Source: Bacteroidota bacterium | Lineage (GTDB): Bacteria > Bacteroidota > Bacteroidia > UKL13-3 | Reading direction: 5' to 3' | Assembly (NCBI GenBank): GCA_030699355.1 | Contig: JAUYMZ010000407.1 | Coordinates: 1 to 38,424, forward strand | Length of the DNA: 38,424 bases | In this document: piece after piece, positions 283 to 25,093 of the stretch | How positions within the stretch are numbered: position 1 is the first letter of the stretch | How the letters are laid out: each line of letters begins with the position of its first letter | Translations under genes and position numbers: made by a program | The notes under the pieces: model-generated | The model's input: the letters and a program-made list of their open reading frames with translations, nothing else | Told to the model about the DNA's origin: nothing | Databases searched by the model: none

Positions 283-1119
283 GTGGTAAGAAACATGCTT
301 TTATTAATGGATGGAACAACAGACGCAGAGCGTTTGTTAGATTGTTCTATCAAAATATTTCACAATCAACAAGATCATTTTAATGGCGCTTTTGTAGATG
401 GAATAAGTTCTAGCAACCTAAACAAAGTGTTTGATAGCAAGGCGCATTTAAGCAGTAGGTTTACGCGTTCAGAAATAATTGAAAAAATATTACATACCGA
501 TTTAAACAACAGCAATGAGTTTATAGATCGTTTTGTTAAAAAGTGCGAAGAGTTAAATCTGCGCACCAAAGTATTTATTGGCGAAGAAGAATCGAATGAT
601 GATTTGCTTAAAGAGAGTATGTTTAACGACTTATTCTTAATAGGAAAAGACATTTTTAGGAAGCCCAATGTTTCGCGTCAATCTTTTGATGCAATAGAAT
701 CGTTGATGCGCAATACCAAATGCCCTATTGTTCTTTTGTCTTGCGAGCAAGTTTCATTTCAAAACGTGGTATTAATCTATGACGGCAGTAAACGCTCCTT
801 CGATGCCATTAAATTATTTATGTATTTAATGAGTGATGCCATACAACAGAATAAACTTATTTTAAATGTGGTTGTAACCGATAATAGCTCTCAAAATGAA
901 AAAGGTGTTATCGATTATTTAAAAAATTATAAGCTTAATTTCTCTATCAATAGGGTATATCCAGAAAATTATTATACAGAGTTATTGAGTCTTTTGGTGA
1001 GTTTAAATTCGTTTTTACTGGTTACTGGGGTAAATAGAAACGATATTTTAGAAGACCTTATTTTTAATAAGGAAAACTCCTTTTTTATGCATGGACAACG
1101 TTCCATCTTTTTTGGATAG
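283..1119 (+). CDS. Universal stress protein family protein (GTG start at 283 or ATG at 295)
   Basis: Two-domain UspA-like layout; located at the head of the cco cluster. Confidence 0.6.
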   Translation: MVRNMLLLMDGTTDAERLLDCSIKIFHNQQDHFNGAFVDGISSSNLNKVFDSKAHLSSRFTRSEIIEKILHTDLNNSNEFIDRFVKKCEELNLRTKVFIGEEESNDDLLKESMFNDLFLIGKDIFRKPNVSRQSFDAIESLMRNTKCPIVLLSCEQVSFQNVVLIYDGSKRSFDAIKLFMYLMSDAIQQNKLILNVVVTDNSSQNEKGVIDYLKNYKLNFSINRVYPENYYTELLSLLVSLNSFLLVTGVNRNDILEDLIFNKENSFFMHGQRSIFFG

Positions 1120-1123
1120 AGAC

Positions 1124-3544
1124 ATGGAATTAGTAGAAAAAAGAAAACAAACCAGCTGTTTTCATTGCGGAGATTCTATCTCTGGAAAAGCATTACTCTA
1201 CGATGAAAAAAGTTTTTGTTGTGCAGGGTGTGAGGGAGTGTATACTTTGTTATCGCAAAATAATTTATGCGATTATTATTCGATAGAGTCGGCACCTGGT
1301 TTAACACAAAAGAATCCTGTATCGGCTGTTAAATTTAATTATTTAGAGGATGCCCAAATACAGGCTCAGCTGATACAATATAGAGATGCCCAAATTTCGC
1401 GCATTACGTTTCACATGCCAACCATGCATTGCAGCAGCTGGATTTGGTTGTTAGAAAGTTTATATAAAATAAACAAAGGGGTTCAAAATTCTCGCGTAGA
1501 TTTTTTAAAGAAGCAGCTGAGTGTTACCTTTAATCATTCCATTATTAGTTTGCGCCAATTGGTAGAGTTGCTTAGTTCTTTAGGATATGAGCCCTCGCTA
1601 AACATGAACGATTTAACAGAAAAAAAGGTAGAACAATCGAACCGCAGGTTATTGTATCAAATGGGGGTTGCGGGCTTTGCCTTTGGAAACATCATGTTAA
1701 TTAGTTTTCCTGAGTATTTTGGTTTAGATAGTCTTTCTCACCATTCCTTTTCTCGTTTATTTGGATACTTAAATATGGTATTGGCAATACCTGTTTTTTT
1801 ATATGCCGCGCAAGATTATTTTATATCTGCGTATAAAAGTATCAAGCAAGGAATTATCAATATTGATTTTCCGCTTGCCCTAGGTATTGTTGTGATGTTT
1901 TTTAGAAGCTCATTTGAGGTTATTTCTCAAACGGGAATTGGTTTTTTTGATACCCTTGCCGGATTGGTTTTCTTTTTATTATTGGGTAAATGGGTTCAGC
2001 AGAGAACCATAGATACCTTATCCTTTGAGCGCGATTATACTTCCTATTTTCCGGTAGCCGTATCTGTAATTAAAGGCGAAATGGAAACTACGGTTCCCGT
2101 AACTCAACTGAATATTGGAGATAGAATTTTAATAAGAAACAACGAAATTATTCCTGCCGATGCCATATTACTTAAGGGCAACGCGCAAATAGATTTTAGT
2201 TTTGTTACAGGCGAAAACGATCCCATAGAAAAAGTGTATGGAGAAATTATTTACGCGGGTGGCCGACAAGTTGGTGGAAGCATAGAATTGGAAGTTTGTA
2301 AGAGTGTTTCGCAAAGTTATTTAACGCAGTTGTGGAATAGCGATCATTTTGCAAAAGCGGGCGAAAGTAAGATGCAATCTTTTCAATCGCTCGTAAGTAA
2401 ATATTTTACCATCGCCTTGTTGGCTTTGGCTTTTGGTTCAGCCATTTTTTGGCTTTGGTTCGACCCAAGTAAAAGTATGTCGGCATTTACGGCTGTTTTA
2501 ATTATAGCTTGTCCTTGTGCCTTGGCTTTATCTTCTCCATTTGCTTTAGGCAATGCCATGCGCATGTTGGGAAGGGCAAAGTTTTATTTAAAATCTCCGG
2601 GTGTTATAGAAAAAATGGCCAAGATAGACCATTTGGTTTTTGATAAAACAGGAACCTTAACACAAGCCACGGAGGCAAAAATTTCCTTTGAAGGCGAAAC
2701 GCTTTCAGCGCTTACTAAGCAGCAAATAGCCGCGCTGTGTATACATTCTGTGCATCCATTGAGCAAGCAAATTTTAAGTTATTTGGCTGTTTCTACTGAG
2801 GGCAAACGTATGGCAACAGATTTTACCGAAACAGTTGGTAAGGGTTTGCAAGCGCAGGTAGATGGGGTACCTGTTGTGGTTGGTTCAGCCCATTTTATTG
2901 CCTTGGCTGAACCAAATGTAAAAGGAGATTTGAATACTTCTGTGTATGTAAAAATTGCAGGGAAAGTGCTTGGCAGATTTGTGATTGCCAATGCCTACAG
3001 AGAAAATTTAGCTGAGGTATTGAGTGGTTTAAGTGCCGGACATAAATTAAGTTTATTAAGTGGTGATAATGATTCGGAGCGTGCGCGTTTGAGCAAGTAT
3101 TTTCCAGCGCAAGCCCAAATGCTTTTTGGGATGAGTCCTTCGGAGAAAATGTTGTACATACACCAATTAAAAGAGAATGGAGAGCATGTGGGCATGATTG
3201 GCGATGGTTTAAATGACGCAGGTGCTTTAAAGGTGGCCGATATTGGCATTTCGGTTTCAGAAAATACCGCTCATTTTACACCCAGTAGCGATGCCATTAT
3301 GGATGCCAGTTCTTTTGCTAAGCTGAACCAATTTTTTACCTATGCCAAAGGAACTTTAAAGGTAATTCACATCAGTTTTGTAATATCATTGATATATAAT
3401 TTGGTGGGTTTAAGCTTTGCCATACAAGGTGTTTTGTCTCCATTAATAGCTGCTATCTTAATGCCAATAAGCAGCATAAGTGTAATTGTTTTTACAACGG
3501 CAGCCACTTATATATTGGCACAAAAAAATAACCTATTTAAATAA
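1124..3544 (+). CDS. ccoI: Heavy-metal translocating P-type ATPase, CcoI/FixI-like (ORF is open from 1091)
   Basis: CFHCG...CCAGCEGVY N-terminal metal-binding region, CPCALALSSP, DKTGTLT, GDGLNDAGAL; cco neighbourhood. Confidence 0.92.
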   Translation: MELVEKRKQTSCFHCGDSISGKALLYDEKSFCCAGCEGVYTLLSQNNLCDYYSIESAPGLTQKNPVSAVKFNYLEDAQIQAQLIQYRDAQISRITFHMPTMHCSSWIWLLESLYKINKGVQNSRVDFLKKQLSVTFNHSIISLRQLVELLSSLGYEPSLNMNDLTEKKVEQSNRRLLYQMGVAGFAFGNIMLISFPEYFGLDSLSHHSFSRLFGYLNMVLAIPVFLYAAQDYFISAYKSIKQGIINIDFPLALGIVVMFFRSSFEVISQTGIGFFDTLAGLVFFLLLGKWVQQRTIDTLSFERDYTSYFPVAVSVIKGEMETTVPVTQLNIGDRILIRNNEIIPADAILLKGNAQIDFSFVTGENDPIEKVYGEIIYAGGRQVGGSIELEVCKSVSQSYLTQLWNSDHFAKAGESKMQSFQSLVSKYFTIALLALAFGSAIFWLWFDPSKSMSAFTAVLIIACPCALALSSPFALGNAMRMLGRAKFYLKSPGVIEKMAKIDHLVFDKTGTLTQATEAKISFEGETLSALTKQQIAALCIHSVHPLSKQILSYLAVSTEGKRMATDFTETVGKGLQAQVDGVPVVVGSAHFIALAEPNVKGDLNTSVYVKIAGKVLGRFVIANAYRENLAEVLSGLSAGHKLSLLSGDNDSERARLSKYFPAQAQMLFGMSPSEKMLYIHQLKENGEHVGMIGDGLNDAGALKVADIGISVSENTAHFTPSSDAIMDASSFAKLNQFFTYAKGTLKVIHISFVISLIYNLVGLSFAIQGVLSPLIAAILMPISSISVIVFTTAATYILAQKNNLFK

Positions 3545-3550
3545 TCGTAT

Positions 3551-3757
3551 ATGAATATCATTTTTATGTTGATTGGGGTAAGTCTTTTAATGGCTTTGGG
3601 ATTCTTACTTGCCTTTGTGTGGTCTGTTAAAAGCGGACAAATGGAGGATGATTATACCCCTTCTGTTCGCATGTTGTTTGAGGATAAACCGCTATCTACA
3701 GAATTGAGCGCAAATAACGAAAAAATAAATGCTGATAAAAGTCAGCCTGAATTATAA
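3551..3757 (+). CDS. ccoS: cbb3-type cytochrome oxidase assembly protein CcoS
   Basis: Short single-TM protein, FLLAFVWSVKSGQMEDDYTPSVRMLFED, directly after ccoI. Confidence 0.9.
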   Translation: MNIIFMLIGVSLLMALGFLLAFVWSVKSGQMEDDYTPSVRMLFEDKPLSTELSANNEKINADKSQPEL

Positions 3758-3822
3758 GTTATGTCATTTTTCTGTCTGGAATACGACAATATTTTTGGTA
3801 CATCAAAATCAAACAAGAATCT

Positions 3823-5952
3823 ATGCAAGTTGAAAACTTTAACTACGACAACCGGGTAGTCCGGAACTTCATTATAGCCTCAGTAATCTTTGGCGTAGTG
3901 GGTATGTTGGTGGGCTTAATTGCAGCAATACAGCTCTATTACCCTGCCTTCAATTTTAATTTACCTTATACCTCTTTTGGTAGAATAAGGCCATTACATA
4001 CCAATGCAGTTATTTTTGCCTTTGTGGGTAATGCTATTTTTGCGGGAGTATATTACTCTCTTCAACGTTTATGCAAGGCCAGGTTATTCAGCGATTTCTT
4101 AAGTAATTTTCACTTTTGGGGTTGGCAGTTAATTATTCTTGCGGCAGCCATTACGCTTCCTTTAGGATTAACAACTTCTAAAGAATATGCAGAATTAGAA
4201 TGGCCAATAGATATTGCTATTGCTTTGGTTTGGGTGGCTTTTGGTGCGAATATGATTGGTACTATTATTAAACGCAGAGAGCGTCATATGTATGTAGCTA
4301 TCTGGTTTTATTTGGCTACCTTTATTACTGTTGCGGTATTACATATTGTAAATTCATTTGAATTACCAGTAAGTTTGTTTAAAAGCTACTCGGCCTACGC
4401 AGGTGTGCAAGATGCTTTGGTACAATGGTGGTACGGACATAATGCGGTGGCGTTTTTCTTAACTACGCCTTACCTGGGTATGATGTACTATTACTTACCA
4501 AAAGCAGTTAACCGTCCGGTTTATTCGTATAAATTATCTATTTTACACTTTTGGACATTAATCTTTTTATACATTTGGGCTGGTCCGCATCACTTGTTAT
4601 ATTCTAGCTTACCAGATTGGGCGCAGTCTTTAGGTGTGGTATTTTCTATTATGTTAATTGCTCCATCTTGGGGTGGTATGATTAATGGATTATTAACTTT
4701 AAGAGGTGCTTGGGATAGGGTAAGAGATGAGCCAGTTTTAAAGTTTTTTGCCGTGGGTGTAACTGCTTATGGTATGGCTACTTTTGAAGGTCCGTTATTA
4801 AGTTTAAAGAATGTGAATGCCATTGCGCACTTTACAGATTGGATAGTTGCCCACGTACATACAGGCGCTTTGGGATGGAACGGATTAATGACATTTGGTA
4901 TTTTCTATTGGTTGGTTCCTAAAATTTATGGTACTAATTTATATTCAAAATCTTTGGCTAATACCCATTTCTGGATTTCAACTTTAGGTATATTGTTCTA
5001 TGCTATTCCAATGTATTGGAGTGGATTTGCTCAAGGTATGATGTGGAAAGAGTTTTTACCAGAAGGGATGTTAAAGTATCCTAACTTTTTAGAAACAACC
5101 CTACAGGTAATTCCAATGCACATGATGCGCTCTATTGGTGGTACATTGTTCTTAAGTGGTTTGTTTGTTATGATTTATAACTTAATGAAAACTGCGGCTA
5201 TGGGCAAGTTAATTGCAAATGAAGCAGCATCTGCTCCAGCCTTAGAAAAAGAATATGTAGCAGAGGGTGCAAATAAATACTGGCACAAAGTTTTTGAACG
5301 TAAACCAGTAACTTTTGCTGTATTAACTGTAGTGGCTGTTTTAATTGGGGGTATGGTAGAAATTATTCCTATGTTAACCATTAAATCAAATGTAATTACC
5401 ATTAGCAGTGTTAAACCTTATACTCCATTAGAGTTACAAGGAAGAGATATTTATATTAAAGAGGGTTGCGTTGGCTGTCACTCACAAATGATTAGACCAT
5501 TTAGAAGTGAAACTGAGCGTTATGGCGAGTATTCTAAATCGGGCGAGTATGTATATGACCATCCGTTCTTATGGGGCTCTAAACGTACCGGACCAGATTT
5601 AATGCGCTTAGGTGGCAAGTATCCAGATAGCTGGCATTATAATCACATGATTGATCCTAGGTCTATGTCGCCAGGTTCTATTATGCCTGCTTATCCTTGG
5701 TTAGCAGAAAATGATTTGAACACCAGCAATACCGCCGATAAAATTAATGCCATGCGTACCTTAGGTGTTCCTTACGAAAAAGGTTTTGAAAGGGAAGCAG
5801 AAGCACATTTGATGGCTCAGGCTAAAAAGATTGCAGATGGCTTAACCAAAGAAGGATATCCTGTTGAGGCCAATAAAGAAATTATCGCTTTAATAGCCTA
5901 CATGCAAAGACTAGGTACCGATATCAAATTAAATAATACAGCAAGTAAATAA
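3823..5952 (+). CDS. ccoNO: cbb3-type cytochrome c oxidase, fused subunits I and II (CcoN-CcoO)
   Basis: Heme-copper oxidase helices with conserved His (WWYGHNAVAFFLT, AGPHHLLY, HVHTGALGWNG) followed by a CcoO domain with CVGCHSQMIRPFRSETERYG. Confidence 0.95.
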   Translation: MQVENFNYDNRVVRNFIIASVIFGVVGMLVGLIAAIQLYYPAFNFNLPYTSFGRIRPLHTNAVIFAFVGNAIFAGVYYSLQRLCKARLFSDFLSNFHFWGWQLIILAAAITLPLGLTTSKEYAELEWPIDIAIALVWVAFGANMIGTIIKRRERHMYVAIWFYLATFITVAVLHIVNSFELPVSLFKSYSAYAGVQDALVQWWYGHNAVAFFLTTPYLGMMYYYLPKAVNRPVYSYKLSILHFWTLIFLYIWAGPHHLLYSSLPDWAQSLGVVFSIMLIAPSWGGMINGLLTLRGAWDRVRDEPVLKFFAVGVTAYGMATFEGPLLSLKNVNAIAHFTDWIVAHVHTGALGWNGLMTFGIFYWLVPKIYGTNLYSKSLANTHFWISTLGILFYAIPMYWSGFAQGMMWKEFLPEGMLKYPNFLETTLQVIPMHMMRSIGGTLFLSGLFVMIYNLMKTAAMGKLIANEAASAPALEKEYVAEGANKYWHKVFERKPVTFAVLTVVAVLIGGMVEIIPMLTIKSNVITISSVKPYTPLELQGRDIYIKEGCVGCHSQMIRPFRSETERYGEYSKSGEYVYDHPFLWGSKRTGPDLMRLGGKYPDSWHYNHMIDPRSMSPGSIMPAYPWLAENDLNTSNTADKINAMRTLGVPYEKGFEREAEAHLMAQAKKIADGLTKEGYPVEANKEIIALIAYMQRLGTDIKLNNTASK

Positions 5953-5959
5953 TAATATT

Positions 5960-6121
5960 ATGTTCAAACAACATATTCAAAGCATGGTGGGAATTGAATC
6001 AGGATACCTGATATTTTCACTCATCGTTTTTCTTTCGTTTTTTCTAGGAGTTCTTTGGTGGGTGGTAAAAGCGGATAAGAAATATATCAAGGATATGGAA
6101 CAAAAACCATTTGAAAATTAA
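5960..6121 (+). CDS. ccoQ: Small membrane protein, CcoQ/FixQ-like (53 aa; not in supplied ORF track)
   Basis: ATG at 5960: MFKQHIQSMVGIESGYLIFSLIVFLSFFLGVLWWVVKADKKYIKDMEQKPFEN*; single TM, lies between ccoNO and ccoP. Confidence 0.75.
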   Translation: MFKQHIQSMVGIESGYLIFSLIVFLSFFLGVLWWVVKADKKYIKDMEQKPFEN

Positions 6122-6125
6122 AATT

Positions 6126-7010
6126 ATGATGAAGCATAAATTAGTTTCTGTGTCGGCTTTTCTTTTATTAGCTAGCACAATATCTGCACAAACTGGCAGT
6201 ATTGCCGCAGCAGAACCATCTATTATTGGCTTATCAAGTATATTGATAGCTGTGAATGTAGTTCTTCTTGTATTTGTATTATTCTTATTGGGTACATTAA
6301 CTTCTGCTATCCAAAGATTACGCTCAGGAGAAACAGAAAAAGTTCAATTAAGTTGGTGGGATAGGTTTGCTGCCCTTAAATCTGATAAAACAGAAGAAGA
6401 ACTTAGATTGGATGAGGATTATGATGGCATTCATGAATTGGATAATCCAACGCCGCCTTGGTTCAACTTTATATTCTATACGTCTATTATTGCTGCAGTA
6501 TTGTATTTATTAAACTACCATGTTTTAAAAATTGGTAACTTACAAGAAGCAGAATATACCGCCGAAGTTGCCCAATCTAAAGCTGAAGTGGATGCTTATT
6601 TAAAAACTTCTGGTAACCAAGTAGACGAGAATAATGTGCAGTATATTACCGATACCAAAGTTTTGGCAGAGGCCCAAACCATGTATGCAGAAAAATGTGC
6701 TGTTTGTCATTTAGCCGATGGTGGGGGCGTGGTTGGTCCAAACCTTACCGATGCTTATTGGTTGCATGGTGGAGATATTCAATCTATCTTTAAAACCATT
6801 AAATACGGTGTTCCTGCCAAAGGGATGATAGCTTGGCAAAATACCTATAGTGGCAAACAAATGGAAGCTTTAGCTTCTTATGTAAAATCTTTACAAGGCA
6901 CTAAACCTGCTGTTGCAAAAGAACCGCAAGGAGAGTTATACAATGAAGGGGGTGCTGTTGCAGCAGATTCTACTGCTACCACTGCCATGGTTTCTGAATC
7001 TTCAAAATAA
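6126..7010 (+). CDS. ccoP: cbb3-type cytochrome c oxidase subunit III, monoheme CcoP
   Basis: YDGIHELDNPTPPWFNFIFY CcoP motif and a single CAVCH heme c site; ATG at 6126 or 6129 preferred over TTG at 6111. Confidence 0.88.
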   Translation: MMKHKLVSVSAFLLLASTISAQTGSIAAAEPSIIGLSSILIAVNVVLLVFVLFLLGTLTSAIQRLRSGETEKVQLSWWDRFAALKSDKTEEELRLDEDYDGIHELDNPTPPWFNFIFYTSIIAAVLYLLNYHVLKIGNLQEAEYTAEVAQSKAEVDAYLKTSGNQVDENNVQYITDTKVLAEAQTMYAEKCAVCHLADGGGVVGPNLTDAYWLHGGDIQSIFKTIKYGVPAKGMIAWQNTYSGKQMEALASYVKSLQGTKPAVAKEPQGELYNEGGAVAADSTATTAMVSESSK

Positions 7011-7030
7011 AATAATGAGAATTCAATTGT

Positions 7031-7079
7031 AAAAGTTTGGTGGTTTGCAGAAAAAAAGCAAACCACCAAACTTTTTTTA
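7031..7079 (+). terminator. Strong intrinsic terminator-like hairpin between ccoP and ccoG
   Basis: 18-bp perfect stem AAAAGTTTGGTGGTTTGC / GCAAACCACCAAACTTTT, 9-nt loop, followed by a T tract. Confidence 0.8.
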
Positions 7080-7090
7080 ATTATACGCAC

Positions 7091-8503
7091 ATGAATGAAG
7101 CAAGCAAAATAGCCGATGAACATTTTAGGGATGAATTAGGCAATGTAGATAAAAAGGGTAAACGTTTATGGATTTTCCCTAAAAAACCGAAAGGGCAATT
7201 CTACAATTATAGAACTTGGTTTAGCTGGTTTTTAATGGTATTAATGTTTAGTGGTCCCTTTTTAAAATTTGAGGGTAAGCCGCTTCTTTTATTAAATGTT
7301 TTAGAAAGAAAGTTTATCGTTTTTGGAATGGTTTTTTGGCCGCAAGACCTCAATCTGTTCGCTATTCTAATGCTTTCTTTTGTGCTGTTTATTGTTTTAT
7401 TTACAGTTCTTTTTGGCCGGGTTTGGTGCGGTTGGGCCTGCCCTCAAACCATATTTATGGAAATGCTCTTTCGTAAAATTGAGTATTTTATTGATGGCGA
7501 TTATATCCAACAAAAAAAGTTGGCTAACCAAGATTGGAACACAGAAAAAATAACCAAACGTGCCATTAAACATATTTTGTTTTGGATTTTATCTTTTGTA
7601 ATTGCCAACACATTTTTAGGATATATTATTGGCATAGACCAACTCAAATTATTAGTAACCGACGGGCTTTTTGCGCATGTAGGTAAACTTACTTCTTTGT
7701 TGATTTTTACTACTGTTTTCTATTTTGTTTTTGCCCACCTGCGCGAATTGGTGTGTATTTTCATCTGCCCTTATGGTCGCTTACAAGGACTCATGCTCGA
7801 TAAAAATTCGATGGTGGTGGCTTACGATTTTGTACGTGGCGAACCCCGCGGAAAAATGAAAAAAGAGGAGGTAAATACCCATGGCGATTGCATAGATTGT
7901 AAATTGTGTGTGAACGTTTGTCCTACCGGCATCGATATCAGAAATGGTACTCAATTAGAATGTATTAATTGCACCGCTTGTATTGATGCCTGCGATGAAG
8001 TAATGCTTAAAATTGAAAAGCCAAAAGGGCTTATTCGTTTTGCTTCTTTAAATAATATTACAGAGGGTAAAAAGCTCGGTTTGAACCTAAGAAATGGTGC
8101 TTATACCGTTGTATTGATGGGCTTGTTGAGTGTGTTCTTTTATATGCTAATTACCAGAAAACAGATTGAAACAACGCTGCTAAGAACGCCCGGAATGTTG
8201 TTTCAAAAACAAGCAGATGGTAAAATTAGCAACCTGTACAGCATTGAGTTTGTAAATAAAACTTTTGATGAACTTCCTATAGAATTAAAATTGATTGAAC
8301 CCAAAGGTGAAATAAAATTGATTGATGGCGAAAAAGTAATAGTGCACAAAGAAAGTATTGGTAAAACTTCATTCTTTTTAGTGCGAGATGCCAAAGAAAT
8401 TACTAAAATTGCAACACCGGTAGTTATTGAGGTTTCGAGTAATGGAAAGTTAATAGAAACCATGAAATCTTCTTTTAATGGGCCGGTAACACAAGGAGAA
8501 TAA
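7091..8503 (+). CDS. ccoG: Cytochrome c oxidase accessory protein CcoG/FixG (polyferredoxin)
   Basis: VWCGWACPQTIFMEMLFRKIEY, CIDCKLCVNVCPTGIDIRNGTQLECINCTACIDACDEVM; upstream part of ORF 7037 lies in the hairpin. Confidence 0.93.
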   Translation: MNEASKIADEHFRDELGNVDKKGKRLWIFPKKPKGQFYNYRTWFSWFLMVLMFSGPFLKFEGKPLLLLNVLERKFIVFGMVFWPQDLNLFAILMLSFVLFIVLFTVLFGRVWCGWACPQTIFMEMLFRKIEYFIDGDYIQQKKLANQDWNTEKITKRAIKHILFWILSFVIANTFLGYIIGIDQLKLLVTDGLFAHVGKLTSLLIFTTVFYFVFAHLRELVCIFICPYGRLQGLMLDKNSMVVAYDFVRGEPRGKMKKEEVNTHGDCIDCKLCVNVCPTGIDIRNGTQLECINCTACIDACDEVMLKIEKPKGLIRFASLNNITEGKKLGLNLRNGAYTVVLMGLLSVFFYMLITRKQIETTLLRTPGMLFQKQADGKISNLYSIEFVNKTFDELPIELKLIEPKGEIKLIDGEKVIVHKESIGKTSFFLVRDAKEITKIATPVVIEVSSNGKLIETMKSSFNGPVTQGE

Positions 8504-8508
8504 AAAGT

Positions 8509-8928
8509 ATGAAATTAAATTGGGGTGGCAAATTGTTCATTTTTGCACTTATGTTTATGATTTTTGTAGTAAGCATGGTGGTGGTAATCTCTAAACAAGA
8601 TATGCCTTTGGTAGAACAAGATTATTATGAGCGTGGGCAGAATTATCAAAAGGAAATAGATAACAATGCCAATATGGATACCACTGTTCAAATGAATGTT
8701 GTTGGAAATACACTGGAAGTTTATGCTTCAGCATCTATACCTAATGCTAAGATTAAATTTTATCGTCCGTCTAATTCAGAGCTAGATAAAAACTTTTCAA
8801 CTCAATTAATGGGGGGTAAAAAAGAAGTATACGATTTATCGAACCTAGATAAAGGAAAATGGGTGCTCTCTGTTGTTTGGATGCGGGCAGACAAGGAATA
8901 TAAATTAACGCGCGACTTCGAACGTTAA
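8509..8928 (+). CDS. ccoH: FixH/CcoH family protein
   Basis: N-terminal TM, QDMPLVEQDYYERGQNYQKEID; location after ccoG. Confidence 0.85.
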   Translation: MKLNWGGKLFIFALMFMIFVVSMVVVISKQDMPLVEQDYYERGQNYQKEIDNNANMDTTVQMNVVGNTLEVYASASIPNAKIKFYRPSNSELDKNFSTQLMGGKKEVYDLSNLDKGKWVLSVVWMRADKEYKLTRDFER

Positions 8929-9617
8929 TGTTATTTCTTACCGCATTTTTAACAGGCTTGTTTGGGAGCTTTCATTGTGCCGGTATGTGCGGCCCAATTG
9001 CCTTTGCTTTGCCTGGCAGTAAAGACCAAGGCTTCCTGTTTTACCTGGGCCGACTATTATACAATTTTGGTCGTATTCAAAGTTATGCCCTGTTAGGTTT
9101 AGTTTCTGGAGCTTTTGGCTTAGGCGTTAAATTGGCTGGGGTGCAGCAAGGTTTAAGTATAAGCATTGGTGTGCTTATTATACTCTCTGTTGGGTATTCG
9201 TATGGGATTAAAAAGGGGAGGGGATTTACTTTATTTTCTCTTTTATCCGGTAAATTCATTCAAAAATTGTTTCAAACCAAAAGTGTTTTTGCGCCTTATT
9301 TCATTGGTGTTTTAAACGGCTTTTTGCCATGTGGTTTTGTGTACATAGCCATTTTGGGTGCCACGGTTACCCAAAATGTTTGGGATGGCGCTTTATTTAT
9401 GGCTTGTTTTGGTTTAGGAACTTTGCCCATGATGTACGGAGTTTCTGTTATTGGCCAATTTTTAAGTCAGAAAATGCGCAGTAGTTTGGTCAAATTAAGT
9501 CCAGTTTTTGCCATTCTTATTGCTTTGTTATTTATCCTCCGCGGATTAAATTTAGGAATCCCTTATGTAAGTCCCAAATTGGTTCAGCCCAATGCCAACA
9601 TAGAAAACTGCGAATAA
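8928..9617 (+). CDS. Sulfite exporter TauE/SafE-like family membrane protein
   Basis: LTGLFGSFHCAGMCGPIAFALP; start overlaps ccoH stop (TAATG); typical end of cco clusters. Confidence 0.85.
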   Translation: MLFLTAFLTGLFGSFHCAGMCGPIAFALPGSKDQGFLFYLGRLLYNFGRIQSYALLGLVSGAFGLGVKLAGVQQGLSISIGVLIILSVGYSYGIKKGRGFTLFSLLSGKFIQKLFQTKSVFAPYFIGVLNGFLPCGFVYIAILGATVTQNVWDGALFMACFGLGTLPMMYGVSVIGQFLSQKMRSSLVKLSPVFAILIALLFILRGLNLGIPYVSPKLVQPNANIENCE

Positions 9618-22316: not shown

Positions 22317-24311
22317 TCAAAAGGATTGTTTCCCATAAAACCGATGCATACTTATGATGTGCGGGATGCTGAGGCAAGATAACAGGATGAAAAAGATACC
22401 TAGGTAAATTTCTTGGTAATAGCTTGTAAATAGGGCTATAATTATAGCACCACCTAGGCTAAAGGGCAGTGATTGAAGCCATAGGATTTTTGGTTTTATG
22501 TGGAGTTCTTGTTTTAAATGACTCCAACCATGTAAGCTGTGCTGAAATATAAAGTAAATTCCAAAAGTGATAAGCAAGGGTAAAAAACTAGCCAACAAAA
22601 GATAGCTTAAGGTTAATGCCATTTGCTTTGATTTATACAAATAGATATAGGCTGAACCTATTCCTATAAAAGCGGTTTTGATGATCCATAGGCCGCTTGC
22701 TGATACCTCTGCTAATACCTCATTTGTTTTTAATAAGCTAATATGTTTTAATATCATCTTGGTTTCTTCGAAGTGGCCTGTTAGCATCACCATTAAAATG
22801 GTAAAACCCCACAGAAATGTTTGGGTCGACCCAACCAACCCCCATTCTTTAAAATCTGCTTGTCCGAAATGCCACGCCGAATAAAAGATAAATAGGAGTA
22901 GGGCAAAGTCGGGAATAAGGTACCAAAGCACACCAATGCCCGCTGCTTTAGATAAATACTTTATAATAAATGGCAATAGAAAGTACTTGCTTGCTGGTTT
23001 TTTGCTGGTAAGATGATCGAGGGCACCGTGGGTTAAACCAATAAACAAAAAGCCAAGCGCTAAGATACCCCAACTTAATATTTCGAAATGGAGTGCTTGT
23101 AGGAGGATGGCCAAGCAGGTGGCGATGCTTGCTATGCTTACCGGAGCTATTTTCCTGGCTAAGAAAGCAATATCTTTAAGGGCAAATTGTAAGAACAGCA
23201 AGATGGGTAAACGACAAAATATTTTTAATTCTTGCGCCATTGTGGTTCTCTCGTTTAAAAAGGATAATACCCTTTTAGTTTCTATGGCAGTAAATAATTG
23301 GGTAAAAATTACCTTTCCTTTTTCTGGTTTTAATTCTAATATTTTTAAAAGCAATCTATCGTAAAAGGCAAATCTTTTTGCTTTGGGTTTTTCGGCCAAA
23401 GGCTGATTTTGGGCAATGGATTGGCTTAACTCGTTTGCATGAATGGCCATTGCGTGAAAGGCGTAGCCTGTAGTTGGTTTAATTAAATTGGCTTTAGCGC
23501 CAGTGAATATCCAATTAGGGTGAATTTGTTTATGGGTAAGGCTGGCCGACGACATAGGAATAATGCCTTTTTCTGATTCTATAACGCGGTAGGATAAACC
23601 TTTTTTTTGGAGTTGCTCTTTTAAAATTAACTCGGCTTGTGCTTGGGTAATAGGTTCAGACCCAAAACAAGTTACCTCAAACAATGCGTGATTTTTGGAG
23701 AAAGGCAGCACATACAAAAATTGGCAACTGTTGTTTTGCGGGATATCAAAATCCATCATTGTAACGGCTTTGTTATCTATTTCTCCCGCTATAATTTCTA
23801 CTTCCAAACCATAGAAGGATTGGTATAAATGACTTTCGTTTTTTTGTGGCGCTTGGTACTTTGTTAGGCTGCTATCAAATACTTTTTTGGCAATGATGCT
23901 TGTGTTATCCAAAGTGAGTTGGAACGAGTTATCAATCACTTCTAATTTACCATCAAAAGAGGTTTCAAAATAGGTATGATTAATTTGAGGTAAAACAGAT
24001 TTAACCTCATTGTAAACATCAATACCTCTTATGTGTAAATAGCTCAAAGGAGAAATGGTTTCAAGGTTTTTACCAACCCTAATTTCATCCCATTGATACT
24101 TTACTAAGTGTTGAAGATTTAGTTTTTCGAGTTCATATTTATCCGACCAAAAGCAGAATGTTCTGTCGTTTACGTTTTTCTTTTGGGGTTCTATGATGGC
24201 TATTTGTTTATGGGCAAATAGATTTTTCTTAAACATGTTTAATAGCAACAAGCTATTGGCTGCTCCCAATCCAATGAATAGGTAATCAACTTTGTATAAC
24301 TTGTTTGCCAT
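22317..24311 (-). CDS. Fused lycopene beta-cyclase (CrtY) - beta-carotene 15,15'-dioxygenase (Blh)
   Basis: N-terminal CrtY (DYLFIGLGAANSLLL, QFLYVLPFSKNHALFEVT, IKPTTGYAFHA, RVLSFLNERTTMAQELKIFCRLPILLFLQFAL) continuous with a C-terminal Blh membrane domain (GLTHGALDHL, SAWHFGQADF, QHSLHGWSHL, SIPHIISMHRFY). Confidence 0.9.
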   Translation of the reverse strand: MANKLYKVDYLFIGLGAANSLLLLNMFKKNLFAHKQIAIIEPQKKNVNDRTFCFWSDKYELEKLNLQHLVKYQWDEIRVGKNLETISPLSYLHIRGIDVYNEVKSVLPQINHTYFETSFDGKLEVIDNSFQLTLDNTSIIAKKVFDSSLTKYQAPQKNESHLYQSFYGLEVEIIAGEIDNKAVTMMDFDIPQNNSCQFLYVLPFSKNHALFEVTCFGSEPITQAQAELILKEQLQKKGLSYRVIESEKGIIPMSSASLTHKQIHPNWIFTGAKANLIKPTTGYAFHAMAIHANELSQSIAQNQPLAEKPKAKRFAFYDRLLLKILELKPEKGKVIFTQLFTAIETKRVLSFLNERTTMAQELKIFCRLPILLFLQFALKDIAFLARKIAPVSIASIATCLAILLQALHFEILSWGILALGFLFIGLTHGALDHLTSKKPASKYFLLPFIIKYLSKAAGIGVLWYLIPDFALLLFIFYSAWHFGQADFKEWGLVGSTQTFLWGFTILMVMLTGHFEETKMILKHISLLKTNEVLAEVSASGLWIIKTAFIGIGSAYIYLYKSKQMALTLSYLLLASFLPLLITFGIYFIFQHSLHGWSHLKQELHIKPKILWLQSLPFSLGGAIIIALFTSYYQEIYLGIFFILLSCLSIPHIISMHRFYGKQSF

Positions 24312-24325
24312 GTTTTAGGTAATAA

Positions 24326-24359
24326 AATAGGGATATACTTGTGAAAATATATCCCTATT
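24326..24359 (-). terminator. Hairpin between rhodopsin and crtY-blh (candidate attenuator/leaky terminator)
   Basis: 12-bp perfect stem AATAGGGATATA / TATATCCCTATT, 10-nt loop, followed on the minus strand by TTATT. Confidence 0.6.
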
Positions 24360-24373
24360 CATATTTGTAAAAA

Positions 24374-25093
24374 TTAGTCCTCAGCGTTTCTACTTAAAGT
24401 GTAAATAACTAAACCAAAACCAATTTTGTTGATGGCATCAGCGATGTTGTATACGATGTCCATAGCATGAGTTGCTGCGGCAGGGTCGCTTACCAATTGA
24501 ATACCGAATAATCCACCTGGGGTTCCAAGGATATAACCTAAAGGATAAATAGCCCAACCAACCAATACGAACCAAGCCAATACTCTTGTAGCTTTTGCTA
24601 CTTGTACGCCAGCTGATTGAGATAGTTTTGCAACTTCACCAAACCAGATTAAGTAAACGATGTAGAAATAAGCGGCACCTGAGATAACACCCCAGAGAAC
24701 ACTGTTTTCTCTGTCGATAGTTTCACCAAAATAACCTGTTACCAACATCACTAAAGAAGCGGCGATAAGTTTCCACAATAATCCAATTTTAGCGCCGGCT
24801 TTCTTGGTAATTAAGTAGAATTCAACACACATCAAAGGTACAGTAAGAATCCAATCTACGTATCTAAAGAATGTTGGCGAATCGCCCGTTGCGAGGTTGT
24901 AGCCTCTCATGTAATAGTAATGTACAGCAGCAATAAAGGTAATTAAACCTGATACTAAAACTGAAGTACGCCATTTTTGAGGAGTGTTACCTAGCTCAAA
25001 AAAGAAGAAAACAGACGCGGCCATCATGGCCATTGTTCCGATAAAAAATGTGAATGCCACATAATTATCGCTAGCGATTTTTAAATGTTCCAT
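24374..25093 (-). CDS. Proteorhodopsin-type light-driven proton pump
   Basis: FFRYVDWILTVPLMCVEFYL (D80/T84/E91 = DTE motif, M88 at tuning site), H58 in AAVHYYYMRGY, retinal lysine K223 in ADAINKIGFG. Confidence 0.96.
   Translation of the reverse strand: MEHLKIASDNYVAFTFFIGTMAMMAASVFFFFELGNTPQKWRTSVLVSGLITFIAAVHYYYMRGYNLATGDSPTFFRYVDWILTVPLMCVEFYLITKKAGAKIGLLWKLIAASLVMLVTGYFGETIDRENSVLWGVISGAAYFYIVYLIWFGEVAKLSQSAGVQVAKATRVLAWFVLVGWAIYPLGYILGTPGGLFGIQLVSDPAAATHAMDIVYNIADAINKIGFGLVIYTLSRNAED

Follow-up and report, generated by a model that had tools for sequence, protein, structure and literature searches.

Does the proteorhodopsin encoded in this window, by which we mean the whole 38,424-nucleotide stretch of DNA analysed here, hold a carotenoid in a side pocket? 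A sequence-only reading had drawn attention to a glycine, Gly135, at the position that in xanthorhodopsin opens a fenestration for an antenna carotenoid, and had suggested that this pump may bind a hydroxylated one.

The rhodopsin gene and its carotenoid-site residues

The gene lies on the minus strand at 24374..25093 and encodes a 239-residue protein of the DTE/M type; the plus strand of the same interval has no open frame, its translation being full of stops. The product matches Pfam PF01036 (Bac_rhodopsin; E = 6.5e-42), and its translation shows H58, D80, T84, M88, E91, W134, G135 and K223, with every residue named in the sequence-only reading among them. Asp80 (codon 24854..24856, minus strand), the Schiff-base counterion and proton acceptor, and Lys223 (codon 24425..24427, minus strand), the retinal Schiff-base lysine, are invariant in the MAFFT alignment. 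The Bac_rhodopsin fold, the retinal lysine and the DTE motif together identify a DTE-type proteorhodopsin, and the earlier assignment to the M-type proton pumps with a fenestration glycine was right. Light-driven outward pumping and green absorption are predicted from the motif and M88. To judge from its sequence, the protein is an unremarkable light-driven proton pump, belonging to a type common among freshwater Bacteroidota; we call the clade freshwater because the record titles trace many of the named loci to samples from ponds and lakes. An AlphaFold model (pLDDT 87) had 9JOU as its best structural match (TM 0.90/0.93; 62% identity over the model), and its structural matches are proteorhodopsins. 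We found a single rhodopsin in the host genome, a 3.8-Mb draft that is 97% complete. Scans for consensus promoters and terminators returned nothing above chance near the gene. Elsewhere in the window, the translations alone suggest a cbb3-type cytochrome oxidase cluster at 283-9617 on the plus strand, which includes a 709-residue protein resembling a CcoN–CcoO fusion.

Gly135 (codon 24689..24691, minus strand) sits in an LWG motif. In a gap-free MAFFT column it aligns with the glycines of xanthorhodopsin (LWG, G156; reference sequence confirmed against the full 3DDL sequence), Kin4B8 (MWG, G153) and Gloeobacter rhodopsin (IWG), so that the site carries the small residue of the carotenoid binders rather than a bulky one, and the equivalence proposed earlier for the xanthorhodopsin and Gloeobacter proteins stands. 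A proposed pairing with GPR F152 was recovered in one MAFFT alignment, but in a second Gly135 was paired with GPR P150. This register shifts because the GPR D–E loop is shorter; whichever GPR pairing is taken, the register against the carotenoid-binding rhodopsins is unchanged.

This glycine is the main criterion for recognizing carotenoid-binding rhodopsins, to which a tyrosine, Tyr204 of Kin4B8, has been added (PMC12308411). The tyrosine, conserved in carotenoid-binding rhodopsins, is present here as Tyr187 (codon 24533..24535, minus strand), aligned with Kin4B8 Tyr204 and xanthorhodopsin Tyr207. Two further polar positions mark the 3-hydroxy type. At the first, Kin4B8 Ser208 forms a hydrogen bond to the 3-OH of the carotenoid and is needed for zeaxanthin, with S208A cutting binding to 2% (PMC12308411); the aligned residue here is Thr191 (codon 24521..24523, minus strand). 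At the second, Tyr209 of Kin4B8, where Y209F lowers energy transfer (PMC12308411), our protein has Pro192, and thus three of the four published site residues are in place. A polar residue at position 209 is not strictly required for binding, because zeaxanthin-bound NM-R1 also has proline there.

NM-R1 (9JOU, zeaxanthin-bound; 9JOV) is the closest solved structure, about 63% identical to the rhodopsin described here. The two have in common the DTE/M motif, the LWG fenestration and the glycine, tyrosine, threonine and proline of GY..GTP, and the difference listed between them is a shorter extracellular F–G loop. KR1 from Dokdonia eikasta, a flavobacterial protein, and EinA29G6 are likewise proteorhodopsins with the carotenoid-site tyrosine and threonine (PMC12308411, Table 2), but they carry aspartate or glutamate at the position of Pro192; in the class-wide alignment some close relatives of our protein have glutamate there, as EinA29G6 does. 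Both bind lutein/zeaxanthin (PMC12308411), and since they are proteorhodopsins already proven to do so, a rhodopsin of this kind is already known. More distant is Kin4B8, which shares the glycine (Gly153), Tyr204 and a polar residue at 208, but belongs to the xanthorhodopsin family, is about 31% identical and has Tyr209 in place of Pro192. The rhodopsins of Salinibacter (xanthorhodopsin, 3DDL) and Gloeobacter (6NWD) share the fenestration glycine in a WG motif but are only 30-33% identical, bind keto-carotenoids and have a hydrophobic site floor.

Conservation of the pocket and the carotenoid genes

The glycine is conserved far beyond chance: it is present in 93 of 94 close relatives and in 77 of 79 rows of the class-wide alignment, where both exceptions come from a single genome that was sampled twice (L160 = L197, G064 = G164), as identical sequence motifs and identical coordinates indicate. 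We therefore rejected Gly135 as an unusual feature, since it is nearly universal in the class-wide Bacteroidia sample; proteorhodopsins of Bacteroidia normally have it. Relatives of the rhodopsin occur in 85 of the 395 Bacteroidia genomes sampled. Some relatives have two rhodopsin genes (G041, G043, G050; L098), with the second copy in L098 flanked by broken crtY pieces. At another locus (L251, G130:C1 about 1676779-1677499) the gene is split in two and interrupted by stops, and this copy seems to have decayed.

The sequence-only reading had called for a search of the genome for crtZ, and a CrtZ-like homologue is indeed present. It is a 157-residue hydroxylase of the FA_hydroxylase family on contig C22, with a CrtZ-like histidine pattern, and it overlaps the start of a gene for a 228-residue membrane lycopene cyclase (CrtYcd-type); the name rests on that histidine pattern and the neighbouring cyclase, no NCBIfam model having matched the hydroxylase. 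Contig C82 carries CrtI (scoring as CrtID above cut-off), CrtD and a gene of the phytoene/squalene-synthase family that we take to be CrtB; a PF04240 hydratase (CruF-type) is on contig C342. Judged by these genes, the host is able to make a hydroxylated carotenoid. In the light of what is known of the pathway, these genes are consistent with synthesis of zeaxanthin or of a monocyclic, saproxanthin-like 3-hydroxy carotenoid, and the candidate pigment would be made via CrtB, CrtI, the CrtYcd-type cyclase, CrtZ, CruF and CrtD.

Within the family (64 genomes, 36 with the rhodopsin), a CrtZ homologue accompanies the rhodopsin in 35 of 36 genomes and occurs in 20 of the 28 that lack it (Fisher p = 0.008, without correction for kinship). 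A class-wide search gave a CrtZ match in 70 of 75 rhodopsin genomes. Apart from the genome G164 (= G064), those without a match are G234, G259, which has CrtI, and G354, which is only 77% complete.

G164, 95% complete, also encodes the sole relative without the glycine among those aligned (L160 6001-6714), which carries G135F, T191A and G139M. We found no CrtZ match and no CrtI above cut-off in this genome, and its CrtD-like open reading frame is N-terminally truncated to the C-terminal half; carotenoid synthesis has apparently been lost in the one closed-pocket relative found. G234 (98% complete; locus L184) is the counter-case: it too has no CrtZ and no CrtI above cut-off, yet it keeps the glycine, together with W134F, and no blh was found near its rhodopsin. 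The glycine can therefore persist without the pathway. With one event set against one counter-case (p about 0.05), the coincidence of a closed pocket with carotenoid-gene loss is suggestive, a single evolutionary event and not proof.

A CrtY–Blh fusion downstream of the rhodopsin

Starting 62 bases downstream of the rhodopsin gene, also on the minus strand, is an open reading frame for a 664-residue protein (22317..24311) predicted to convert lycopene through β-carotene to retinal. PF05834 (148 bits) and PF15461 (104 bits) both score above cut-off in this one frame, making it a two-domain fusion of an FAD-type lycopene cyclase, CrtY (residues 9–371; 23199..24287, minus strand), with a Blh-type β-carotene 15,15'-dioxygenase (residues 420–655; 22347..23054, minus strand). 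The dioxygenase model TIGR03753 is also above cut-off; the lycopene cyclase models TIGR01789 and TIGR01790 fall below theirs on the fusion. In the Blh domain, H428, H481, H591 and H651 are invariant across 25 fusions. The fusion lies near the rhodopsin in 47 of the 80 loci of named relatives, and crtY and blh are separate neighbours in four loci (L156-L158 and L165; two titled Sediminibacterium).

Between the two genes lies a terminator-like hairpin, AATAGGGATATA ... TATATCCCTATT (24326..24359, minus strand), that the simple terminator scan did not pick up. A hairpin with a T-rich tail recurs at the same place in relatives, folding better than shuffled sequences in 52 of 53 distinct rhodopsin/crtY-blh gaps, with differing stem sequences. 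Such an element may cause partial termination that favours rhodopsin over the enzyme.

The two neighbours differ sharply in protein conservation. Across 25 family genomes, mean identity is 93% for the rhodopsin and 42% for the fusion. Within the family, dN is about 0.05 for the rhodopsin and about 0.7 for the fusion; synonymous sites approach saturation in both genes, and the distances of the two still correlate (Mantel 0.53). Constraint is thus very strong on the rhodopsin and much weaker on the fusion. For CrtZ, identity is about 76-96% in the majority of these genomes. We also considered recent horizontal transfer as the cause of the 89-96% rhodopsin identity within the family and rejected it on the near-saturated synonymous sites and the low dN of the rhodopsin; a search of plasmids found only rhodopsins less than 60% identical.

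Lycopene cyclase and Blh activities are also joined in one chain in protists, among the CrtIBY and CrtIBY–Blh fusions (Thecamonas; PMC10016063), but those use CrtYc/d, whereas the bacterial fusion here joins an FAD-type CrtY to Blh. We found no report of a bacterial CrtY–Blh fusion in the open-licence literature. The least expected element of the system is the presence of this fusion alongside a distinct lycopene cyclase, presumably serving xanthophyll synthesis. Tentatively, the two cyclases of freshwater Bacteroidota may supply the pump in parallel, with CrtY–Blh turning lycopene into retinal without releasing β-carotene and the CrtYcd-type enzyme and CrtZ making the hydroxylated carotenoid that fills the pocket; where carotenoid synthesis is lost, the pocket might then close, as in the G135F, T191A relative.

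What the pocket probably holds

From the gene and its residues, its homology, the content of the host genome and the conservation of the site, we infer that this is probably a green-absorbing, outward-pumping proteorhodopsin that in vivo holds a 3-hydroxy carotenoid in its Gly135 pocket and receives retinal made next door. The neighbouring fusion would make the retinal locally for binding by K223. Gly135 would leave a gap between helices E and F in which the 3-hydroxy ring of a xanthophyll could sit, with Tyr187 and Thr191 holding it next to the ring of the retinal, and the bound carotenoid may widen light capture, speed the photocycle or both. The earlier suggestion of a hydroxylated carotenoid has thus gained ground. 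Its placement in an open side pocket, as in NM-R1, is by sequence and analogy well supported, because of the zeaxanthin-bound NM-R1 with the same glycine, tyrosine, threonine and proline, the published site residues (PMC12308411) and the carotenoid genes of the host, crtZ homologue included; the glycine-less relative points the same way.

The word 'antenna' in that suggestion may say too much, because the effect of a bound carotenoid might instead be a faster photocycle, or no more than a stabler protein. Binding with mainly these effects and little energy transfer is a substantial alternative, although one we hold to be somewhat doubtful. NM-R1 has reportedly been described with photocycle-accelerating carotenoids in marine Bacteroidota, which would fit such a role. 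Pro192 also stands where Kin4B8 has a hydrogen-bonding residue tied to efficient transfer, but KR1, a flavobacterial proteorhodopsin with the carotenoid site, does transfer energy from carotenoid to retinal (PMC12308411).

Less probable still, and in our judgement unlikely, is that the glycine is a trait inherited within the clade and that in this host lipid, or nothing, occupies the fenestration. Because the glycine is nearly universal in Bacteroidia proteorhodopsins, finding it in any one species is not very informative by itself, and G234 retains it with neither CrtI nor CrtZ; the host, however, has a CrtZ homologue, its rhodopsin keeps Tyr187 and Thr191 as well, and the only closed pocket occurs where carotenoid genes have been lost. 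We think it very improbable that the ligand is a 4-keto carotenoid, as in xanthorhodopsin and Gloeobacter rhodopsin. Although the glycine and tyrosine are the same as in those proteins, the site floor is Thr191, matching the threonine of the 3-hydroxy binders KR1 and EinA29G6 and not the methionine of xanthorhodopsin and Gloeobacter rhodopsin (PMC12308411), and among the CrtI-family genes found in the host genome the CrtO-type (ketolase) model scores far below cut-off.

The rhodopsin kind itself being known, the useful additions here are the fusion layout and a natural closed-pocket control. With the closed-pocket relative and the two-cyclase arrangement, the pairing of rhodopsin and carotenoid becomes testable by comparison, beyond mutation alone. 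The analysis also puts a very widespread rhodopsin clade in the group of pumps that probably bind carotenoids, and this bears on how much blue-green light these bacteria are estimated to use.
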